Source: a virus
Virus record (IMG/VR): IMGVR_UViG_3300008259_003217
Coordinates: 95,869-159,868 of that record
DNA length: 64,000 nucleotides
Strand: one strand, 5' to 3'
Shown here: positions 15,715 through 45,160 of the stretch, piece by piece
How positions within the stretch are numbered: position 1 is the stretch's first letter
Layout: every line of letters starts with the position of its first letter
The notes under the pieces: model-generated
What the model saw: only the letters and a program-made list of their open reading frames with translations
Databases searched by the model: none
What the model was told of the DNA's origin: nothing
Program-made: the position numbers and the translations under genes

Positions 15715-16515
15715 ATGAAGGAAAAAAATGGGGGTATACCAATTAATCAAGAAGAACTTTATTATTATTTAAAAGACATCAGGAAACTTAAAGTAATGAC
15801 CCCAGATAGGGAAAAAGAATTAGCTGTAAAGATGAAATTAGAGTCGACAACTAAATACGAAAGGGATAAAATTGAGGAAGAACTGTTACTCGGTAATTTA
15901 CGATTTGTAATTACGGTAGCTAAGAAATACCAAAACCAGGGTATGGATCTCCAAGATTTAATAGCTGAAGGTAACTTTGGGTTAATGAAAGCTATTAAAA
16001 ACTTTGATTGGGGTAAGGATCTTAGATTTATATCGTACGCGGTTTGGTGGGTTAAACAAAGTATTATCCAGTCATTAAATGATAACGCTAGAACCATAAG
16101 ACTCCCGGTTAATATTGTTCAGGATTTACAAAAAGCTAAAAAAGAAGTTGAAAACTCCGGTAAAAAAATGGATGACAAATTCACATCACTACCATCAATT
16201 ATTGATCTAAATATGTCGATAAATAGTGAAGGTGATACGTTGATCGATGTTATTGTTAACAATGACGCGGAGTCACCAGATTCCATTTTCAACACTAAAG
16301 ATCAATTAAAGGATAAAATGATGTCAATTCTAAATATTCTAGATGATAGAGAAAGAGTTATTGTTGAAGATTATTACGGATTAACAGGAACACCAAGAAC
16401 GTTAGAAGATATTGGATCTGACTTTAATCTAACAAAAGAAAGAGTTAGACAAATTAAAGATAAAGCTTTGCGTAGACTTAGAAACGAAAGTTCAGAATTA
16501 TTTGATTATTTATAA
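15715..16515 (+). CDS. RpoD-like sigma factor (candidate late sigma)
   Basis: 266 residues. It has a short region 1.2, a clear region 2 (GNLRFVITVAKKY, then QDLIAEGNFGLMKA, and the WWVKQSIIQS/ARTIRLPV 2.3-2.4 segment at about 105-130), a shortened region 3, and region 4 with a helix-turn-helix (LEDIGSDFNLTKERVRQI) at about 228-258. This is a group 2 sigma-70 layout, more complete than T4 gp55. Placement next to gp46/gp47 parallels T4, where the late sigma gp55 maps near 46/47. It is a good candidate to direct the phage RNA polymerase programme, possibly at TATTTAT sites. Confidence 0.88.
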   Translation: MKEKNGGIPINQEELYYYLKDIRKLKVMTPDREKELAVKMKLESTTKYERDKIEEELLLGNLRFVITVAKKYQNQGMDLQDLIAEGNFGLMKAIKNFDWGKDLRFISYAVWWVKQSIIQSLNDNARTIRLPVNIVQDLQKAKKEVENSGKKMDDKFTSLPSIIDLNMSINSEGDTLIDVIVNNDAESPDSIFNTKDQLKDKMMSILNILDDRERVIVEDYYGLTGTPRTLEDIGSDFNLTKERVRQIKDKALRRLRNESSELFDYL

Positions 16516-21408: not shown

Positions 21409-22884
21409 ATGAGAAAAGACCAATTAAAACGTAGTATATTTAAAAAACTTTTAAGGGAAAGTATGGAATCAAAAGCTCAGGAAGTTTTAGAAAAAATAAT
21501 GAACATGAAAGACATTAATCCTGATAATGAATTTGATTATACAGCTGAGAGTAAAATGTGTAACGAATGTGGGTTAGGTGAAATGGTTGAGGGTGAGTGT
21601 AACGAATGTGGGTATTCAAAAATGTCAATGGAAGAAGAAAAAACATTATCTAGAAAACAAAAGAATATCGCAAAATTAGCTGAACCTGAAGATGAAATAG
21701 ACGCTGAGGATCTTAAAGTACTAAGATCTAAAAAACGAAAAGACATGAAAGAATCTGAAGATATGGATTTTTACAAAGACTCTGATATAATGGGTGGGGA
21801 AGTACACTCAAACAGAAGTAGAAAACATGACGATGATGAAGAAATTATGTATGAATTAGAAATGGAACGTGAAATTGACGAATCTGATGTTTGGGAAGGT
21901 AATGAATTTAGTGGTGAGTTAAATAAAGCTAGAGAACGTGGCGATGAGTATTTTACTGTTGACGATAGAAAGTATAAAGTTAGAAATGAAAGTTCTGAAA
22001 AATTCATACAAAAAGACTCAAGTAAAATGGGGAAAAAAGGAACTGAAGGTAATTTTAGAAAATGGTGTGAAAGACAAGATTTAACTAATGAAGATGGTGA
22101 GGTGACTAAATCATGTATTGACAAAGCTATGAAATCAAACGACACCAAGGTCATTAAAATGGCTACATTTGCTGCTAATGTTGGTGGATTTTTAGGATCA
22201 AATAAAGGTAAGAAAAAGAAAACAGTAAAAGAATCAGCTTTATTTACCGAAAGTGAAATTATCTCAATAATTGAAAAAATTGTTAACGAGGAAAAAGATA
22301 ATATCAAGAAAAGATCACACAAAGGTTTAGATACATACAACAAGATACATAAAGAGTCTGGTAATGAAAATGATGACTATATTAAAGCTCTAACCAAAAA
22401 AATGAATGAATATCAAAAACCAGGGTCAAAAATTAAATATGATATGAATCCAGAGGAGTTCCCAATGGCTAATGGTGATATGGATAAAAAAGCTTTTGAA
22501 CTTTCTGATGAGGGTGAAGACTTTAATTATGAAATTGGTGGATTACAAATACCGGTATCCGATGGGGTTGATCACAATGAAGAGTCAATCAAAAATTATT
22601 ATCTTGGGTCTAGTAAAACCGGAAATGAACCTGGTGGAAACGCACTTAAATCAAAAGCCAACGATAGATTTCACAAATTTGAAGAAAGAAAAACATTAAA
22701 TAAGTTAAAAAACCAATCATATAAAAGGGTAACTAGCCCAGTCTTCAATGAAAAACCAGGAACCGAAAAAGGTAAAGGTATGAATATTAAATTGGAATCA
22801 GCAGAGGAAAAGAAAGTGGAAAAAATAAATGAAGAATTTAACAAGATTAAAAATTTAATATCTTACGATAGAAAAACACAATAA
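21409..22884 (+). CDS. Probable internal virion/core protein with N-terminal tag and zinc ribbon
   Basis: 491 residues, highly charged, low in hydrophobics. The N-terminus is a basic amphipathic helix ending in LLRE, as in other tagged proteins here. A C-x2-C...C-x2-C ribbon (CNECGLGEMVEGECNECG) lies at about 52-68. At about 276-296 there is a second tag-like segment (LFTESEIISIIEKIVNEE), so the protein may be a polyprotein-like chain of processed pieces. The sequence ends with long polar regions. This suits a core or internal head protein, but no homologue was recognised. It is preceded by TATTTAT and followed by a strong terminator. Confidence 0.6.
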   Translation: MRKDQLKRSIFKKLLRESMESKAQEVLEKIMNMKDINPDNEFDYTAESKMCNECGLGEMVEGECNECGYSKMSMEEEKTLSRKQKNIAKLAEPEDEIDAEDLKVLRSKKRKDMKESEDMDFYKDSDIMGGEVHSNRSRKHDDDEEIMYELEMEREIDESDVWEGNEFSGELNKARERGDEYFTVDDRKYKVRNESSEKFIQKDSSKMGKKGTEGNFRKWCERQDLTNEDGEVTKSCIDKAMKSNDTKVIKMATFAANVGGFLGSNKGKKKKTVKESALFTESEIISIIEKIVNEEKDNIKKRSHKGLDTYNKIHKESGNENDDYIKALTKKMNEYQKPGSKIKYDMNPEEFPMANGDMDKKAFELSDEGEDFNYEIGGLQIPVSDGVDHNEESIKNYYLGSSKTGNEPGGNALKSKANDRFHKFEERKTLNKLKNQSYKRVTSPVFNEKPGTEKGKGMNIKLESAEEKKVEKINEEFNKIKNLISYDRKTQ

Positions 22885-26518: not shown

Positions 26519-28603
26519 ATGGAGTTAATAAAGATATTATCCGAAACGGTAGTTAAAAATATTAAAAGAAAAGATCTTTTATCGGAAGCTATGTCTGAAA
26601 AAGTTATCAAACAAATGATTGATAAATTTAGTGGTGAGACAGAGGGGGACCCAAACCCACCAACTGAGGATTATGTTAGAGAACTCATTTCAGATTTTGA
26701 AAGATTTAAACAAGCTTTTCCACCGGATAGAAGAGATATCGTACAATACACATATAACGATTTAAAAACAACAGTAGAGGAGTATAAGAAAAAACAAGAA
26801 GCTAAAAAAGCGTCTACAGAAACTTTTAAAGCTTTTATGGACAAAAATAAAGGAGCGGATATTAATCAAGTTAAGGCTAATTTTAAAGCTTTCGATATGG
26901 TTAAAGACGTATTACCAGCAAAAGAACAAAATATTTTAAATTATACCGATGTTGATCTAAATGATCTGATACAAAACCAATTCGTACCATTAATGGTCAT
27001 GAAGAGAAAAATAAAAGATCTTGAACAAATGGATCCTAGAGTATCATCACAGATACTTAAAATGCCAAAAGAAAGACTACAACAGGTATTAAACGATAAG
27101 TTTAAAGAGATTGTGGTTAGTGTTGGTTGGAAAAAATTCGCAACTGAAAATCCAGAATTAACCCCTGAAATTGTCTTACCAAGACTTGAAGCTTACGCCA
27201 CCGCTTATTCAAAAATACCATTCAACACTAAACCGTTAATGTTAATGACATTTGATGAATTCGAACATATTGTTGATGCTTTACCTGTGGACGAAGAGGA
27301 TGAAACGAAAGTAGGTATTGACCTGGATGATATCAAAACAATATATGAAGATGATGAATTATTAGTATTTTTACCAACAATAAAAAATGAATGTATCAGA
27401 ATTAGAAAAAAATACGCACCTAACTCAAGTTGGTGTACATCCTGGGATAGAGCGGGTAACTACTATTACAATTACAGATTAAAACAAAATTTAACGTTAT
27501 ATTACGTAATTGATTTAACACAACCAGCAAACTATAGAACACACCCAAATCACGCTGGTGTTGTCCTTGTTGATAGATATGGTGATAAAAGATTGGCTGA
27601 CGCTACTAACTCAGGACGATGGTCCGGAGGTCAAACAGTTAGTTGGAATGAAATCACCGAAAAGTTCCCACTACTAAAAGGTAAGGAGGATTTATTTAAA
27701 CCATTACCAATTAGTGATGAGGATAGGGAACATATGAATAGAATTGAGAGTGCTAGAGTTAGTACTGACGCTATTAAAGAATTAGGGTCTGAAGCTGAAG
27801 CTGAATTGTGGTTAGAATTGGTTGGTCCAGATTTGAGTAATAGAAGTGGTGGTTCTGAAATTTACAAGAATCTAACACCAGAACTTAAAAAGAAATACAT
27901 TGGTTTAAGTTTACCGTTAAACGCTCAAATGGTTCAGGATTCAGAACCAGATGTAGTCGCTTATTATTTGAGAGAAAAAGTAAAACAATTTGAAAATAAA
28001 TCATTAAAGGAATTAACCGAGTTAGATATCGCTCTCATCAATAGTCCGTTAATGAAAAAACACAAAGAAAAAATTAGAGAAATATACACAAAGGAAATTG
28101 AATTTGGTATTGACGAACAATTTGGTGGATCATCTTTAGAAATAAGTTACCCATCAAACATTAACGCTAAATTTTCCGCTATATTTGGATTGGAAAAATT
28201 ATTTGCTAGTGTTAAAGATAAAACCAAAATAACATATGTTTCACTTGAGAATACAAGTAAGGGATCCCTATATCTTGATTTACCAAACGAGATAGCTCAA
28301 TTTACCAACTTACAAATGTTAATTGTTGACAATTATATCAAATCAATTCCAGAAGCTATCGGACAATGTAAGTTTTTAGTTTTCTTAAACTTATTGAATT
28401 GTCCTAGATTGACAAAACTACCAAAATCAATTGTTAATTTAACTTGTTTGGAGTTTTTATCAACATCCGGATCCGGGATTGATGAAAATAGTATACCTGA
28501 ATCAGCTAAACAATATTTTATTGAGGATGAATTTATGGGTTATGTACAACCTAATTTCCCACCAGAGATGAAACAACACTGTCCAGCAACCTTTGACTTT
28601 TAA
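26519..28603 (+). CDS. Tagged protein with KWC-box domain and C-terminal LRRs
   Basis: 694 residues. The N-terminus has two tag-like elements (ILSE near 8, LLSEA near 22). A helical region (about 50-250) follows. Next is a domain (about 270-400) beginning IYEDDELLVFLP and containing SSWCTSWDR, which matches the KWC[TV]-box proteins at 41857 and 48663. After a helical stretch, leucine-rich repeats fill about 575-660 (LPNEIAQFTNLQMLIV, then LPKSIVNLTCLEFL). It is probably a late, virion-associated effector; that is inference from the tag and motif. No enzyme activity can be assigned. Confidence 0.6.
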   Translation: MELIKILSETVVKNIKRKDLLSEAMSEKVIKQMIDKFSGETEGDPNPPTEDYVRELISDFERFKQAFPPDRRDIVQYTYNDLKTTVEEYKKKQEAKKASTETFKAFMDKNKGADINQVKANFKAFDMVKDVLPAKEQNILNYTDVDLNDLIQNQFVPLMVMKRKIKDLEQMDPRVSSQILKMPKERLQQVLNDKFKEIVVSVGWKKFATENPELTPEIVLPRLEAYATAYSKIPFNTKPLMLMTFDEFEHIVDALPVDEEDETKVGIDLDDIKTIYEDDELLVFLPTIKNECIRIRKKYAPNSSWCTSWDRAGNYYYNYRLKQNLTLYYVIDLTQPANYRTHPNHAGVVLVDRYGDKRLADATNSGRWSGGQTVSWNEITEKFPLLKGKEDLFKPLPISDEDREHMNRIESARVSTDAIKELGSEAEAELWLELVGPDLSNRSGGSEIYKNLTPELKKKYIGLSLPLNAQMVQDSEPDVVAYYLREKVKQFENKSLKELTELDIALINSPLMKKHKEKIREIYTKEIEFGIDEQFGGSSLEISYPSNINAKFSAIFGLEKLFASVKDKTKITYVSLENTSKGSLYLDLPNEIAQFTNLQMLIVDNYIKSIPEAIGQCKFLVFLNLLNCPRLTKLPKSIVNLTCLEFLSTSGSGIDENSIPESAKQYFIEDEFMGYVQPNFPPEMKQHCPATFDF

Positions 28604-33862: not shown

Positions 33863-35410
33863 ATGAAAAAATTAGTAAGACTTAGTGAAAGTAAATTAAT
33901 TAATTTAATTAAGAACATTATCCTGGAGAATGAGGAGGACAATTACGTCGAAATCCAACCAGAGATGTATAAAAAATTATTAATGGGTGTTAATGGTAAC
34001 GCTCAATTAATTCATAACCTCCCACAATTTAAAGGTAAAAAAATACGAATCACCGGGAATTTAGATTTAAGTGATCATAAGTTTAGGGAAAAAATTACTG
34101 ATTTGGGTGACATTAGAATTGATGGTGTGGTTGATTTATCTGGTACCGGTATCAAAACGATTAAAGGAATAACAACACACTCCAATCATATCAGAGTTTG
34201 GGGAACACCGTACGAGAAATATCTTGAAAGATTAAAAAGACAACGAGAGAGAGAAGAATCTCAGGAAAGACGTGAAGAAAATGAATGGGACCTAAATAAT
34301 GGGGACACAACCGGTGAAATGGCACACGCTGTTCTTAAATTCATGGAAGACCACGATGGTTCAGTTAAACTTTTAGATGATGAAGATCAAGAAAAATTAG
34401 AAGAACTTAGAAGAAAACATAAAGAATTAGAACAAAAACTAGAAGAAGAGGAAGATGATGAAAAATCTGACGACATTGTTGTTGAAATGGATGAGGTTGA
34501 ATCTGACATCAATGATTTAATGGATGAGGTTCATGATGTCTATGATTTAGTTGAGGATGGAGGTCATTATGGTGATTTAACCATATTTAAATCTGTTAAT
34601 GACACAACTTACGGTCAAAGATACGCAGTTGGAACTGAAGACCAATTTGATGAAGCTTTAAAAGAATATTATCAAGACTGGGTTGATAGTCCCGAACAAT
34701 ATTTTGATTCAAACCACTTAGAAAGATACATAAACGGTGATGAAGTCGCTGAATACTTTGAAGATGACGTTAGAAATGACATATATGAAAGTCCAGAAAG
34801 TTATGACATTGAAAAAACTCTTAGTGGTAGTCAGGAACGTGAAATTGAACAACTAGAATATGAAAGAAGATCATTACTTCAGGAACAATTTTTAATTGAA
34901 AGAGGAGCTAGATCACCATTAACGGAAGAAGTAACTGAAAGTTTAAGGTATTTTAAATTTACCGATTACATGAATAATGAATTAATAACTCAGTACGATT
35001 CTAATCGATGGGTGATTTATCAAAACGGTAAAGAGGTTGAACAAATATACTATAGTGATGACGATGAGGATGGTGAACATGAGGAGGAAAATGAAAACCG
35101 AATAAGTGAGATTGAAGATAGAACTAGTGAAATTGAATCTGAAATTGAAGTAATTAAAGATGATCCAGATGGTGATTTAGATGATGATTCAGTGGAAGAA
35201 GCTGTTGAGGACCGATTGTCCGAGATTAGAGATAACCCGACAAGATGGTTGGATGATTATGGGATGGATTATGGTCCTTTTATTGATAAAGATGAAATGT
35301 TAGATGATTTAGTTAGTGATAGTGATTATGGTAGAATTAGTGGTTATGACGACACATATGATTACTACACAATAAATCAGGACCGATATTATGTTGTTAG
35401 AACAGATTAA
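33863..35410 (+). CDS. Tagged acidic protein with LRR-like start, probable internal virion protein
   Basis: 515 residues. The N-terminus (KKLVRLSESKLINLIKNIILE) is the clearest tag example, with LSE then ILE. Residues about 40-110 carry a leucine-rich-repeat-like pattern with LDLSD and VDLSGTGI. The rest is extremely acidic, with coiled-coil stretches (about 125-160 and 400-445). High charge without a fold suggests a core or internal protein. The tag and position downstream of TATTTAT support late expression and packaging; both are inference. Confidence 0.6.
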   Translation: MKKLVRLSESKLINLIKNIILENEEDNYVEIQPEMYKKLLMGVNGNAQLIHNLPQFKGKKIRITGNLDLSDHKFREKITDLGDIRIDGVVDLSGTGIKTIKGITTHSNHIRVWGTPYEKYLERLKRQREREESQERREENEWDLNNGDTTGEMAHAVLKFMEDHDGSVKLLDDEDQEKLEELRRKHKELEQKLEEEEDDEKSDDIVVEMDEVESDINDLMDEVHDVYDLVEDGGHYGDLTIFKSVNDTTYGQRYAVGTEDQFDEALKEYYQDWVDSPEQYFDSNHLERYINGDEVAEYFEDDVRNDIYESPESYDIEKTLSGSQEREIEQLEYERRSLLQEQFLIERGARSPLTEEVTESLRYFKFTDYMNNELITQYDSNRWVIYQNGKEVEQIYYSDDDEDGEHEEENENRISEIEDRTSEIESEIEVIKDDPDGDLDDDSVEEAVEDRLSEIRDNPTRWLDDYGMDYGPFIDKDEMLDDLVSDSDYGRISGYDDTYDYYTINQDRYYVVRTD

Positions 35411-40797: not shown

Positions 40798-40861
40798 TTT
40801 CCTTGTTTAGAAAAAACAAGGTGGTGGAGTCGGACACAATCTAAGTGTTGACCTAAAATTT

Positions 40862-40890
40862 AAGGGGGGATTTATTCCCCTTTAATTTTT
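40862..40890. terminator. Bidirectional terminator at the ECF sigma stop
   Basis: Stem AAGGGG / CCCCTT with an 9-10-nt loop, followed by a T run on the plus side. The stop of the leftward sigma gene lies in the loop. Confidence 0.6.
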
Positions 40891-41423
40891 TTAAGGTTTT
40901 TCTTAAAATTAGCTTTAGCTTTATGTAGGTTTGATTTTGATGTACCCTCACTAATACCCAGTTCGTCAGCTATTTCCTGGTGAGATAGACCTTCAAAGTA
41001 GTACATCTTTAATACTTTTTTATAGTTTGGTGTTAACATATCAATAGCTTTTTTAATCTCCTCCTCACTATACTCATTCATAAATAAATTTGGGTCATTT
41101 GGCTCCTCCTCTGGAGTGGACAACAGTTCACTATCTGAAGTATGTTTCATTTTATTACCCCTCATTTGATCTATTATGTGGTTTCTAATTAACCTAGCTA
41201 ACCAACCTTGAACATTACGTACATCATCAAATTTATCAAATTTCTCATACGCTTTTATAAACGCTGACTGACAATAGTCTTTAGCTAAGTCAGAGTCGTT
41301 GTTAGACATCGGATAACAGATCTTACGATACATTTCCTGGTAATACATCTTATAGATCTCCCCAAAATCCGAAGATTCAAAAAGCAGAACTCTATATTGA
41401 TTTTCTGATAATACCAATTTCAT
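40872..41423 (-). CDS. ECF sigma factor with phage-type N-terminal tag
   Basis: 183 residues from the ATG at 41423; a TTG form eight residues longer is possible. ECF layout: region 2 at about 25-95 (DYCQSAFIKAYEKF, NVQGWLARLIRNHIIDQMR), linker, region 4 at about 128-178 with helix-turn-helix (LSHQEIADELGISEGTSKSNL). The first 18 residues (KLVLSENQYRVLLFE) carry the LSE...LFE tag seen on putative internal virion proteins. A TATTTAT lies 4 nt upstream. It may redirect host RNA polymerase; packaging is inferred. Confidence 0.85.
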   Translation of the reverse strand: MKLVLSENQYRVLLFESSDFGEIYKMYYQEMYRKICYPMSNNDSDLAKDYCQSAFIKAYEKFDKFDDVRNVQGWLARLIRNHIIDQMRGNKMKHTSDSELLSTPEEEPNDPNLFMNEYSEEEIKKAIDMLTPNYKKVLKMYYFEGLSHQEIADELGISEGTSKSNLHKAKANFKKNLKKIKGE

Positions 41424-41427
41424 ACTT

Positions 41428-41434
41428 ATAAATA
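41428..41434 (-). promoter_or_regulatory. TATTTAT motif (minus strand), candidate late promoter
   Basis: Only 4 nt before the start at 41423, implying a leaderless message if it is a -10-type element. It touches the -33 box of the divergent promoter. Confidence 0.4.
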
Positions 41435-41466
41435 TTTGTTTTTTCAAAAAAAAAGATTTATATTTG
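41435..41466 (+). promoter_or_regulatory. Bacteroidota-type promoter TTTG-N20-TATATTTG
   Basis: TTTG at 41435-41438 and TATATTTG at 41459-41466. It ends 4 nt before the ATG at 41471, so the transcript may start at or near the start codon. Confidence 0.65.
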
Positions 41467-41470
41467 TCAC

Positions 41471-41860
41471 ATGGATAAAATATTATATATCGTTAGAGGA
41501 ATTCCCGGATCAGGGAAGAGTACCTTTGCTAAAACATTGGGTGGACAACACTACGAAGCTGATATGTACTTTGTAACTCCATCAGGGAAATATGAATTTA
41601 ACCCAACGAAAATCAAAGACGCACACCAATGGTGTCAAAGTTTTGTTAAAACTGATATGATCCTGGAGTACCCAAAGATAGTCGTCTCAAACACCTCAAC
41701 CCAAGAATGGGAAATGAAACCATATTTTGATTTAGCTAAGGAGTTTGGATATACCGTTTTCACCATTATTGTTGAAAACAGACACGGTGGTAAAAACCAA
41801 CACGATGTCCCAGAAGATAAAATTGAACAAATGATAAATCGTTTTGAAATTAAGTTATGA
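41471..41860 (+). CDS. P-loop kinase (AAA_33 / polynucleotide-kinase-like)
   Basis: 129 residues. Walker A GIPGSGKST lies at 10-18, followed by the ADMYF segment and a downstream VVSNTSTQEWEM strand typical of AAA_33/NEDD4BP2-like kinases, related to the T4 Pnk kinase domain. It might phosphorylate RNA or DNA ends. An RNA ligase and other RNA-repair-like genes are nearby, but the substrate is unproven. Its stop overlaps the next ATG (ATGA). Confidence 0.75.
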   Translation: MDKILYIVRGIPGSGKSTFAKTLGGQHYEADMYFVTPSGKYEFNPTKIKDAHQWCQSFVKTDMILEYPKIVVSNTSTQEWEMKPYFDLAKEFGYTVFTIIVENRHGGKNQHDVPEDKIEQMINRFEIKL

Positions 41861-42789
41861 GTAGGTTAGATAAATTAAAAGAACAACACCCAGATTTGAA
41901 TGTATCAATAATTGATATAATCTCTTATTTGGACCCAACTGATTCGTATAAGTATTTGGATTTTTTGATTAAAAACTTCAAAAGAGACAATGAGTATTAT
42001 AGTCCAAATAAAGAAGAGTTCATGGGGTATATGGGAGTGTTCTTATTTGGTTCGGGTGAGATTGAAACCCTAAATGAATTTGAGAGACACTCTAGATCTA
42101 ATAGAATTGAAAATAAAGATATTAGTTCTTATAGTAATTTTCTAGAATTGTATGAGGTTGTTAAAAAAGCCGAAGAAATTGAAAATAGGAAAAAACTAGA
42201 AAAAGAAGTTATTAAAATTTACGAGGACGATACCTGGTTTATAATAACCCCATTAAGTTTTGAGTCATCCAAAACCTACGGATCAAACACAAAATGGTGT
42301 GTGACACAAGAAAAATATTGGGTTAATTATTTATCAACACACCGATTAGTGTATGTTATAAATAAAACCACCGGTTTAAAAATAGCGTTCTCAAGAAACT
42401 TTAGGTTGGAACATCAAAGAAACAGAAACAATCAAATACAAGCTTGGAATGAACAAGATAAAGAAATAGACCCGATGTCAATCAGTGAAATCCCAGATGA
42501 ATTGTTTTTGGTTGTAAAAAAAGAATTACAAATGTATAAGACAACCGGTGAACTAGCTGGGATAGAAAATAATACATTATTAACCAATTCAGATTCATTA
42601 TACGGGACAATGGGAAATCCATACTCTATCAGTACAACAGCGACCCTAGATATCCCAAGACCAGCAAACCCAAATAGAAGTTATAATGTTGATAGGATTT
42701 CTAGACTTAGGAATATGATTAATAGTTACCCGGACTCTTCTAGATTTGTCCCACCAAGTGATCTTGATTGGTTAGATGATTTACCATAA
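41857..42789 (+). CDS. KWC-box family protein (paralogue 1)
   Basis: 310 residues. The N-terminal helical region (IIDIISYLDPTDSYKYLDFLIKNF) matches that of the paralogue at 48663. The central domain begins KIYEDDTWFIITP and contains NTKWCVTQ near 149, followed by YVINKTTGLKIAF and IQAWNEQDKEID. The end is Pro/Ser-rich. A related domain occurs in the LRR protein at 26519. No known family was recalled for it. It is coupled to the P-loop kinase gene. Confidence 0.55.
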   Translation: MSRLDKLKEQHPDLNVSIIDIISYLDPTDSYKYLDFLIKNFKRDNEYYSPNKEEFMGYMGVFLFGSGEIETLNEFERHSRSNRIENKDISSYSNFLELYEVVKKAEEIENRKKLEKEVIKIYEDDTWFIITPLSFESSKTYGSNTKWCVTQEKYWVNYLSTHRLVYVINKTTGLKIAFSRNFRLEHQRNRNNQIQAWNEQDKEIDPMSISEIPDELFLVVKKELQMYKTTGELAGIENNTLLTNSDSLYGTMGNPYSISTTATLDIPRPANPNRSYNVDRISRLRNMINSYPDSSRFVPPSDLDWLDDLP

Positions 42790-43921: not shown

Positions 43922-45160
43922 ATGAAAAATATTTTTTTAACCGAGAATCAACTTAATTATATATCAAAAAAATTGATAACTGAAGCTGTTGGAGTACCTG
44001 AAGGTATTATAGATGAAGCTGAAAAATTATATAACTTCATTTCGGAACAATTGAAAAAAATTAACACCAAAGAACCCAAATACGAATTTGGGAGTACATT
44101 TGAAATTAACATTTTGGATCTGAAATTAAAGGAACTAGAAGTTGAGGTTTCCGTTGAAACTGTCGATGAATATGATGGTGAAATGGTGATTGGGTCTATG
44201 GGTGTTTATAACCAATCTAGATTTGATACGGGTATTAAAATGGTAATTATATTACAAAATTCTAAACTAGATTTAGCTTTAAGTTTTATAGCTTCAGAAA
44301 ATTGGGAACCAAGTGATATGTATGAGTCGTTTACAAAAGATAGTATTGAAACCATCTCAATATTAGCACATGAGTTAAAACACAGATATGACAAATCCAA
44401 AAAGAAGATGGGTCAATTAGGTAAATTAGCAAAATACCAAGTATACGCGTCATCTGGAATTAGATTCGGTATTCCGGTGATCGATGATTTTATGAGAAAA
44501 TCTTATTTCATCAGTTCAATTGAGAATCTGGTTAGACCAACTGAGATAGCTGCTAGGATGAAATTAAAAGGAGTCACCAGAGACCAATTTTATGAGTTCA
44601 TAACCAATGACCCAACATTCATTGAAATTAAAAATATTAGAGATCTTACTTTTGATAAATTAATTGAAAGTATGAAAAATGAAATGGACAGAATTGATAG
44701 GTTATTAACACACGTTAAACTTGACCCAAAAAATATGTCAGATAATGAAAAAATATCAAAGATCCTTGAACTTGTATATATCAACATAGTAAACGCTAAG
44801 ATTAACATTTTCGACGATCAATTTTATAACGCTAAAGACAGACTGGACCAATTGTTTTCAAATTTTATTGGAACTTCTAGTCCATTCATAGATAAAGAAA
44901 AGGAAAGGATTAGAGATAAATACATCTCAAGAACTGTAAGGTATCAAAATGATCCTGTACAGTTTTTTAAAGATGAATGTGAAAATTTTAATAGATTAGG
45001 TAATCAAATGTTAAAAAAAATATCAAAAATTTATTCCTTAATCCCAGACGAGAAGGAACAAACAAACGAATCGATCGTGAATTGGGATTTACACCAGAAA
45101 CTTATGGAAAAGAAGTACGGTAAAAGACCAATCCAAACCACCTACAATTTCAAAAAATAA
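43922..45160 (+). CDS. Tagged zinc metalloprotease-like protein (HExxH)
   Basis: 412 residues from ATG 43922; an upstream TTG form is less likely because the tag lies at this ATG. The N-terminus KNIFLTENQLNYISKKLITEA carries LTE and ITE tag elements. HExxH is H150-E151-L-K-H154 in ILAHELKHRYD. A possible third ligand is E201 or E208 in SIENLVRPTEIAAR. A helical C-terminal half follows. It may be a virion-packaged protease acting on host proteins. Substrate is unknown. Confidence 0.65.
   Translation: MKNIFLTENQLNYISKKLITEAVGVPEGIIDEAEKLYNFISEQLKKINTKEPKYEFGSTFEINILDLKLKELEVEVSVETVDEYDGEMVIGSMGVYNQSRFDTGIKMVIILQNSKLDLALSFIASENWEPSDMYESFTKDSIETISILAHELKHRYDKSKKKMGQLGKLAKYQVYASSGIRFGIPVIDDFMRKSYFISSIENLVRPTEIAARMKLKGVTRDQFYEFITNDPTFIEIKNIRDLTFDKLIESMKNEMDRIDRLLTHVKLDPKNMSDNEKISKILELVYINIVNAKINIFDDQFYNAKDRLDQLFSNFIGTSSPFIDKEKERIRDKYISRTVRYQNDPVQFFKDECENFNRLGNQMLKKISKIYSLIPDEKEQTNESIVNWDLHQKLMEKKYGKRPIQTTYNFKK

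Follow-up and report, generated by a model that had tools for sequence, protein, structure and literature searches.

A large T4-like phage, whose host is probably one of the Bacteroidota, encodes an ECF sigma factor headed by a short peptide that recurs on unrelated phage proteins and ends in a candidate prohead-protease site. We propose that this sigma factor is packaged in the virion: a tag resembling the capsid-targeting sequence (CTS) of T4 would bring it into the head, a prohead protease would trim it, and the product would be ejected to act on host RNA polymerase. We regard this reading as a whole as likely, though well short of assured. The comparative evidence behind it, all drawn from sequence, consists of the ECF sigma itself, its tag, the conservation and sharing of that tag, an (L/I)xE site at the junction and a promoter class; T4-type protease and capsid protein genes are likewise present in relatives with the tagged sigma. 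From these comparisons we strongly infer packaging and cleavage. Ejection and action on host polymerase we infer by analogy, because T4 CTS cargo and ECF sigmas behave in this way.

The window, the 64,000-nucleotide stretch of DNA analysed here, covers bases 95,869-159,868 of a 159,868-bp IMG/VR record. A Bacteroidota host is suggested by a host-type promoter word and by the closest named capsid matches, which include Flavobacterium phages. Of cultured relatives whose flavobacterial host is known, Flavobacterium phage immuto is the nearest by capsid protein.

A tagged ECF sigma factor

The first-pass annotation had named an ECF sigma gene with an N-terminal tag and a TATTTAT motif, and domain matches, a profile score and the position of the motif 4 nt from the ATG bear out all three (Table 1). 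Pfam Sigma70_r2 (1e-10) and Sigma70_r4_2 (4.7e-18) and NCBIfam TIGR02937 sigma70-ECF (1.3e-31) match the 183-aa product, which PHROGs likewise assigns to ECF-type sigma factors. Regions 2 and 4 are found without regions 1.1 and 3, the arrangement that defines ECF (group IV) sigmas, and domain searches gave sigma domains only, with no polymerase catalytic subunit. Foldseek against PDB returned ECF sigmas as top matches to the predicted structure (7e-7 and weaker), as expected of a two-domain ECF fold, and region 4 fits M. tuberculosis sigma region 4 (3hug) with an rmsd of 0.4-1.8 A across ~59 residues. Mean pLDDT of the model is 73.9; its domains float (pTM 0.45), which keeps TM over the whole chain low. 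Three further IMG/VR contigs carry an identical (100%) gene, and a search for cellular relatives found only one distant MAG locus. Inspection by eye of the neighbouring genes in six loci revealed no anti-sigma-like gene. The span marked at first, 40862-41434, takes in a terminator and the promoter-like motif besides the sigma gene.

Table 1. Features of the sigma locus and of other tagged or sigma-related genes in the window (window coordinates)
Feature	Position	Strand	Basis or remark
ECF sigma factor gene	40872..41423	-	ATG at 41423, stop ends 40872, 183 aa
Sigma region 2 (residues 27-91)	41151..41345	-	PF04542, 1e-10
Sigma region 4 (residues 121-171)	40911..41063	-	PF08281, 4.7e-18
Tag, residues 1-16 (MKLVLSENQYRVLLFE), proposed capsid-targeting sequence	41376..41423	-	Profile score; tagged homologues aligned
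Proposed prohead-protease cut, E16/S17 (LFE then S)	41373..41378	-	(L/I)xE in 17/17 tagged ECFs
TATTTAT late-type promoter element	41428..41434	-	AAGT between motif and ATG (4 nt), leaderless arrangement
TATATTTG, host-type promoter element of divergent P-loop kinase-like gene (41471)	41459..41466	+	Contrasts with the sigma's TATTTAT
Terminator hairpin, 3' end of sigma gene, mainly serving the convergent + strand	40860..40885	+	
Tagged protein with HExxH motif (MKNIFLTENQLNYISKKLITE, then AVGVPE)	43922..45160	+	TATTTAT 5 nt upstream
Tagged protein (MKKLVRLSESKLINLIKNIILE, then N)	33863..35410	+	TATTTAT 5 nt upstream; tagged homologues in L375, L384
Tag-like N-terminus (MELIKILSETVVKNIKRKDLLSE, then A)	26519..28603	+	TATTTAT present
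Tag-like N-terminus (MRKDQLKRSIFKKLLRE, then S)	21409..22884	+	TATTTAT present
Second sigma-70 family gene, beside gp46/gp47-like genes	15715..16515	+	phrog_351, 1.8e-49

The tag is distinct from the N-termini of untagged ECF sigmas. The protein begins with the 16 residues given in Table 1, followed by SSDFG, and this peptide replaces the residues found N-terminal to region 2 in untagged ECFs; the model places it, with low confidence, apart from the sigma fold. Scored on a profile of tags from unrelated non-ECF phage proteins, built without any ECF sequence, the window tag reaches 20.0 bits, against -14.5 to -26.5 bits for untagged ECFs and a maximum of 14.7 bits among 40,000 shuffled N-termini. 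A blind scan of IMG/VR for the tag, using a pattern without sigma information, recovered three ECF genes (L198, L230 and L239). The tag takes a short form in relatives, MKIIITESQYxxLxE, and a long form, MKKIIRLTESDLxRIVxRVIxE; in a scan of IMG/VR, at least 120 stretches matched the short form.

Tagged ECFs recur across related phages. A homology scan produced 31 loci with 17 distinct tagged ECFs, 37-49% identical to the window sigma, in which M1, K2, E7, Q9 and Y10 are invariant (n = 17). All 17 keep (L/I)xE. Fifteen keep E16 itself; in the remaining two the tag core is followed by an insertion, and LIE or LKE precedes the sigma domain. Each of the 29 upstream regions inspected has TATTTAT at 4 nt from the ATG. 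The tagged ECFs form one group in the sigma-domain tree, a single change with modest support (75/81). In many phages the gene stands alone, on the strand opposite to its neighbours; in the G052 group other tagged genes lie around it. The tagged ECF gene is accessory. A search for relatives through UvsX (37 records, mostly fragments) gave three ECF matches, all on contigs already known via ECF, and no tagged ECF gene among the newly found relatives.

Sharing of the tag and the candidate cleavage site

A short N-terminal peptide of this kind is common to non-homologous proteins of the same phages. Its bearers in relatives include a DHH phosphoesterase-like protein, a lysozyme with LysM, an exonuclease, an HExxH protein and unknowns, and several other window genes begin with similar peptides ending in (L/I)xE (Table 1). 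TATTTAT accompanies 31 of 47 non-ECF tags, compared with 23% of background (P about 6e-10). The tagged window protein at 43922 had no match in named phage records.

The tagged proteins seen in relatives hint at further cargo. The DHH phosphoesterase-like protein is tagged in many phages (among them L195, L197, L232, L247, L102 and L387), with tags of 7 to 16 aa, and is a candidate injected enzyme. Five other loci (L241, L244, L223, L255 and L211) hold tagged nuclease-like proteins, one an exonuclease by Pfam and the others so judged by eye, and a lysozyme with LysM, which together may form an injected set. A 365-aa ORF at L005:1206-2303 on the minus strand (record 41206-42303), with TATTTAT 5 nt upstream, seems by eye to be a fusion of a putative HExxH metalloprotease with a superoxide-dismutase-like domain.

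The (L/I)xE site tends to mark the boundary between tag and protein. The tag search pattern did not include (L/I)xE, yet 36 of 47 non-ECF tags contain it, compared with 29.5% of background N-termini (P about 3e-11); the remaining 11 have none within residues 11-30. It lies directly before the conserved body in 11/11 members of the GVPE family and in 13/13 readable members of the SGIR (DHH) family, where the 14th match is a stop-ridden frame. Tag length in these two families spans 7 to ~23 aa, yet (L/I)xE stays at the junction (24/24 readable). In the structure model of the window sigma, E16/S17 falls in coil between predicted helices 7-15 and 20-39, outside the sigma fold, and cleavage there would spare both region 2 and region 4.

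A protease of the T4 type is encoded alongside tagged sigmas in two relatives. T4 gp21 cuts after L/I-X-E, a T4-type prohead protease works inside the prohead, and a protein can be directed into the T4 capsid by as few as 10 N-terminal residues (PMC9026906). In these two relatives, G052 and G055, the contig with the tagged ECF also has genes for a T4 prohead protease (PF03420, about 1e-23) and for Gp23 (about 1e-64); genes for a T4-type prohead protease and for Gp23 are present in further relatives too. The capsid protein of G052 and G055 has HLINE, then AT, before its conserved body, which matches the (L/I)xE site. Neither protease nor Gp23 was found in the window's own 159,868-bp record and no head genes were seen there, so the record is probably a fragment; other parts of it hold T4-type replication, sheath and baseplate genes.

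The TATTTAT promoter class

TATTTAT is a recurrent upstream element in these phages. The window contains 70 copies where 48.3 are expected, and no other 7-mer is as over-represented upstream of genes in the window's record (32 regions versus 4.9 expected); upstream counts in three other genomes are 50 versus 9.4, 51 versus 8.6 and 80 versus 13.8 expected. It ranks first among upstream words in five of six genomes, and in the sixth, G054, it is still enriched, with the host-type word higher. The distance from TATTTAT to ATG peaks at 4-7 and at 11-19 nt (G000, G019, G029, G052, G054, G056 and G074), which suggests leaderless and short-leader late messages; the nearer peak would fit a -10 element of leaderless messages. 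Chance in AT-rich DNA was rejected as an explanation, given the excess in the window, the leading rank in five of six genomes and the two preferred spacings.

The gene content of the class is largely that of late functions. Protease, scaffold, core, tube and baseplate genes carry TATTTAT. It is absent from polymerase, SSB, UvsX, RNR, gp46, gp47 and the second sigma; gp41 is an exception to this pattern. The sequence directly upstream of the terminase, portal, Gp23 and sheath genes has no TATTTAT. Judged by this content and by its own TATTTAT, the sigma gene would group with the late-type class. De novo upstream words comprised only TATTTAT and the host-type TAT(A/C)TTTG; no third promoter class, read by the ECF, was found. 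Like the T4 late sigma gp55, the ECF would be a phage sigma using host polymerase, but the better gp55 counterpart is the second sigma-70 gene at 15715-16515, a candidate gp55-type late sigma that may read TATTTAT.

Proposed route, alternatives and known systems

We propose the following route from one host to the next. The sigma gene would be transcribed late from its TATTTAT promoter, probably as a leaderless message since the motif lies so near the ATG. Residues 1-16 would act like a T4 capsid-targeting sequence and draw the sigma into the core of the prohead, where a gp21-type prohead protease of the phage would remove them by cutting after L-F-E. The trimmed sigma, beginning SSDFGEIYKMYY just ahead of the first region-2 helix, would remain in the head with the DNA and enter the next host with it. 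There it would bind host core RNA polymerase and guide this enzyme to phage promoters ahead of all phage protein synthesis. The packaging half of this proposal, raised in the first-pass annotation, holds that the N-terminal tag targets the capsid and is processed and that the sigma shares its promoter class with head and tail genes; comparison across 17 homologues and many unrelated tagged proteins supports it well. We found no virion proteome for tagged-ECF phages, that of Flavobacterium phage immuto is absent from open papers, and the open-access literature yielded no report of a packaged phage sigma factor.

The tag could mark virion cargo while the sigma is a pro-sigma active in the producing cell, held inactive by its N-terminal peptide until the prohead protease or another protease takes the peptide off late in infection. 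The late-type promoter would suit such a scheme, as would a tag that occupies the pre-region-2 stretch, where an inhibitory peptide could sit; yet the same tag is found on lysozyme, exonuclease, DHH and HExxH proteins, which need no such control, and a T4-type protease acts inside the prohead (PMC9026906). We consider this quite improbable. A packaged pro-sigma, whose tag both targets the prohead and silences the sigma in the producing cell until the protease arms it inside the capsid, is unlikely in our view; if true, control over transcription would pass between infected cells inside the particle.

Other readings concern what the protein does on arrival and whether it has a tag at all. A packaged and ejected sigma might serve only to tie up the host core polymerase and shut down host genes, or be left-over core material. 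The lack of a detected ECF-type promoter class is compatible with this, as is the likeness of the other enriched upstream word to a host-type promoter, which would need no phage sigma, but regions 2 and 4 are both conserved, as expected of a promoter-binding factor, and we give such a fate a rather small chance. That the N-terminus is a normal first ECF helix, similar to other proteins by chance, is scarcely credible. A short helix before region 2 is common in ECF sigmas and the length here is about normal; an ordinary ECF N-terminus was nevertheless rejected on the profile score and shuffles, the blind recovery of ECF genes by tag, and conservation in 17/17 that persists after insertions.

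The packaged and ejected sigma we favour has partial counterparts in known phages. In T4, the CTS and the internal proteins (IPI, IPII, IPIII and Alt) also combine a short N-terminal peptide on unrelated proteins with an L/I-X-E end, and relatives with the tagged ECF share the gp21-type protease and Gp23. T4 CTS cargo is cut by gp21 and ejected to act on the host, where Alt modifies host RNA polymerase (PMC9026906). The likeness is one of layout; both tag forms here appear to differ in sequence from the T4 CTS. Unlike Alt, the cargo here is a sigma factor rather than a polymerase-modifying enzyme, and its packaging is predicted. Virions of N4 and phiKZ-like phages carry RNA polymerase and allow early transcription without prior synthesis (PMC4496689, PMC13282480). 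Here too a transcription component would, by prediction, travel in the particle, but theirs are whole polymerases and this is a specificity subunit only, which must borrow the host core enzyme. ECFs of crAss-like and other phages (cr10_1, cr1_1 and L172-L183) share a homologous ECF domain at about 26-38% identity but lack the tag and TATTTAT. Host-type sequences like TATATTTG lie upstream of the untagged L172-L183 genes, with TATATTTG itself in the L172/L180 type.

Particles with whole RNA polymerases (N4, phiKZ) or with a polymerase-modifying enzyme (T4 Alt) represent two ways of taking over transcription from the outset; a carried sigma, if true, would add a third, at the lowest cost in mass. 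The tag also offers a simple rule, based on sequence, by which the injected proteins of an abundant group of uncultured T4-like phages can be listed, and by which a large set of unknown genes gains a testable role. Flavobacterium phage immuto, a cultured T4-like phage (L406-L409), is a possible culturable model for the tag: two of its proteins start MKKQILSEQFxRMQxLAGIITE, then S, and TATTTAT is among its leading upstream words.
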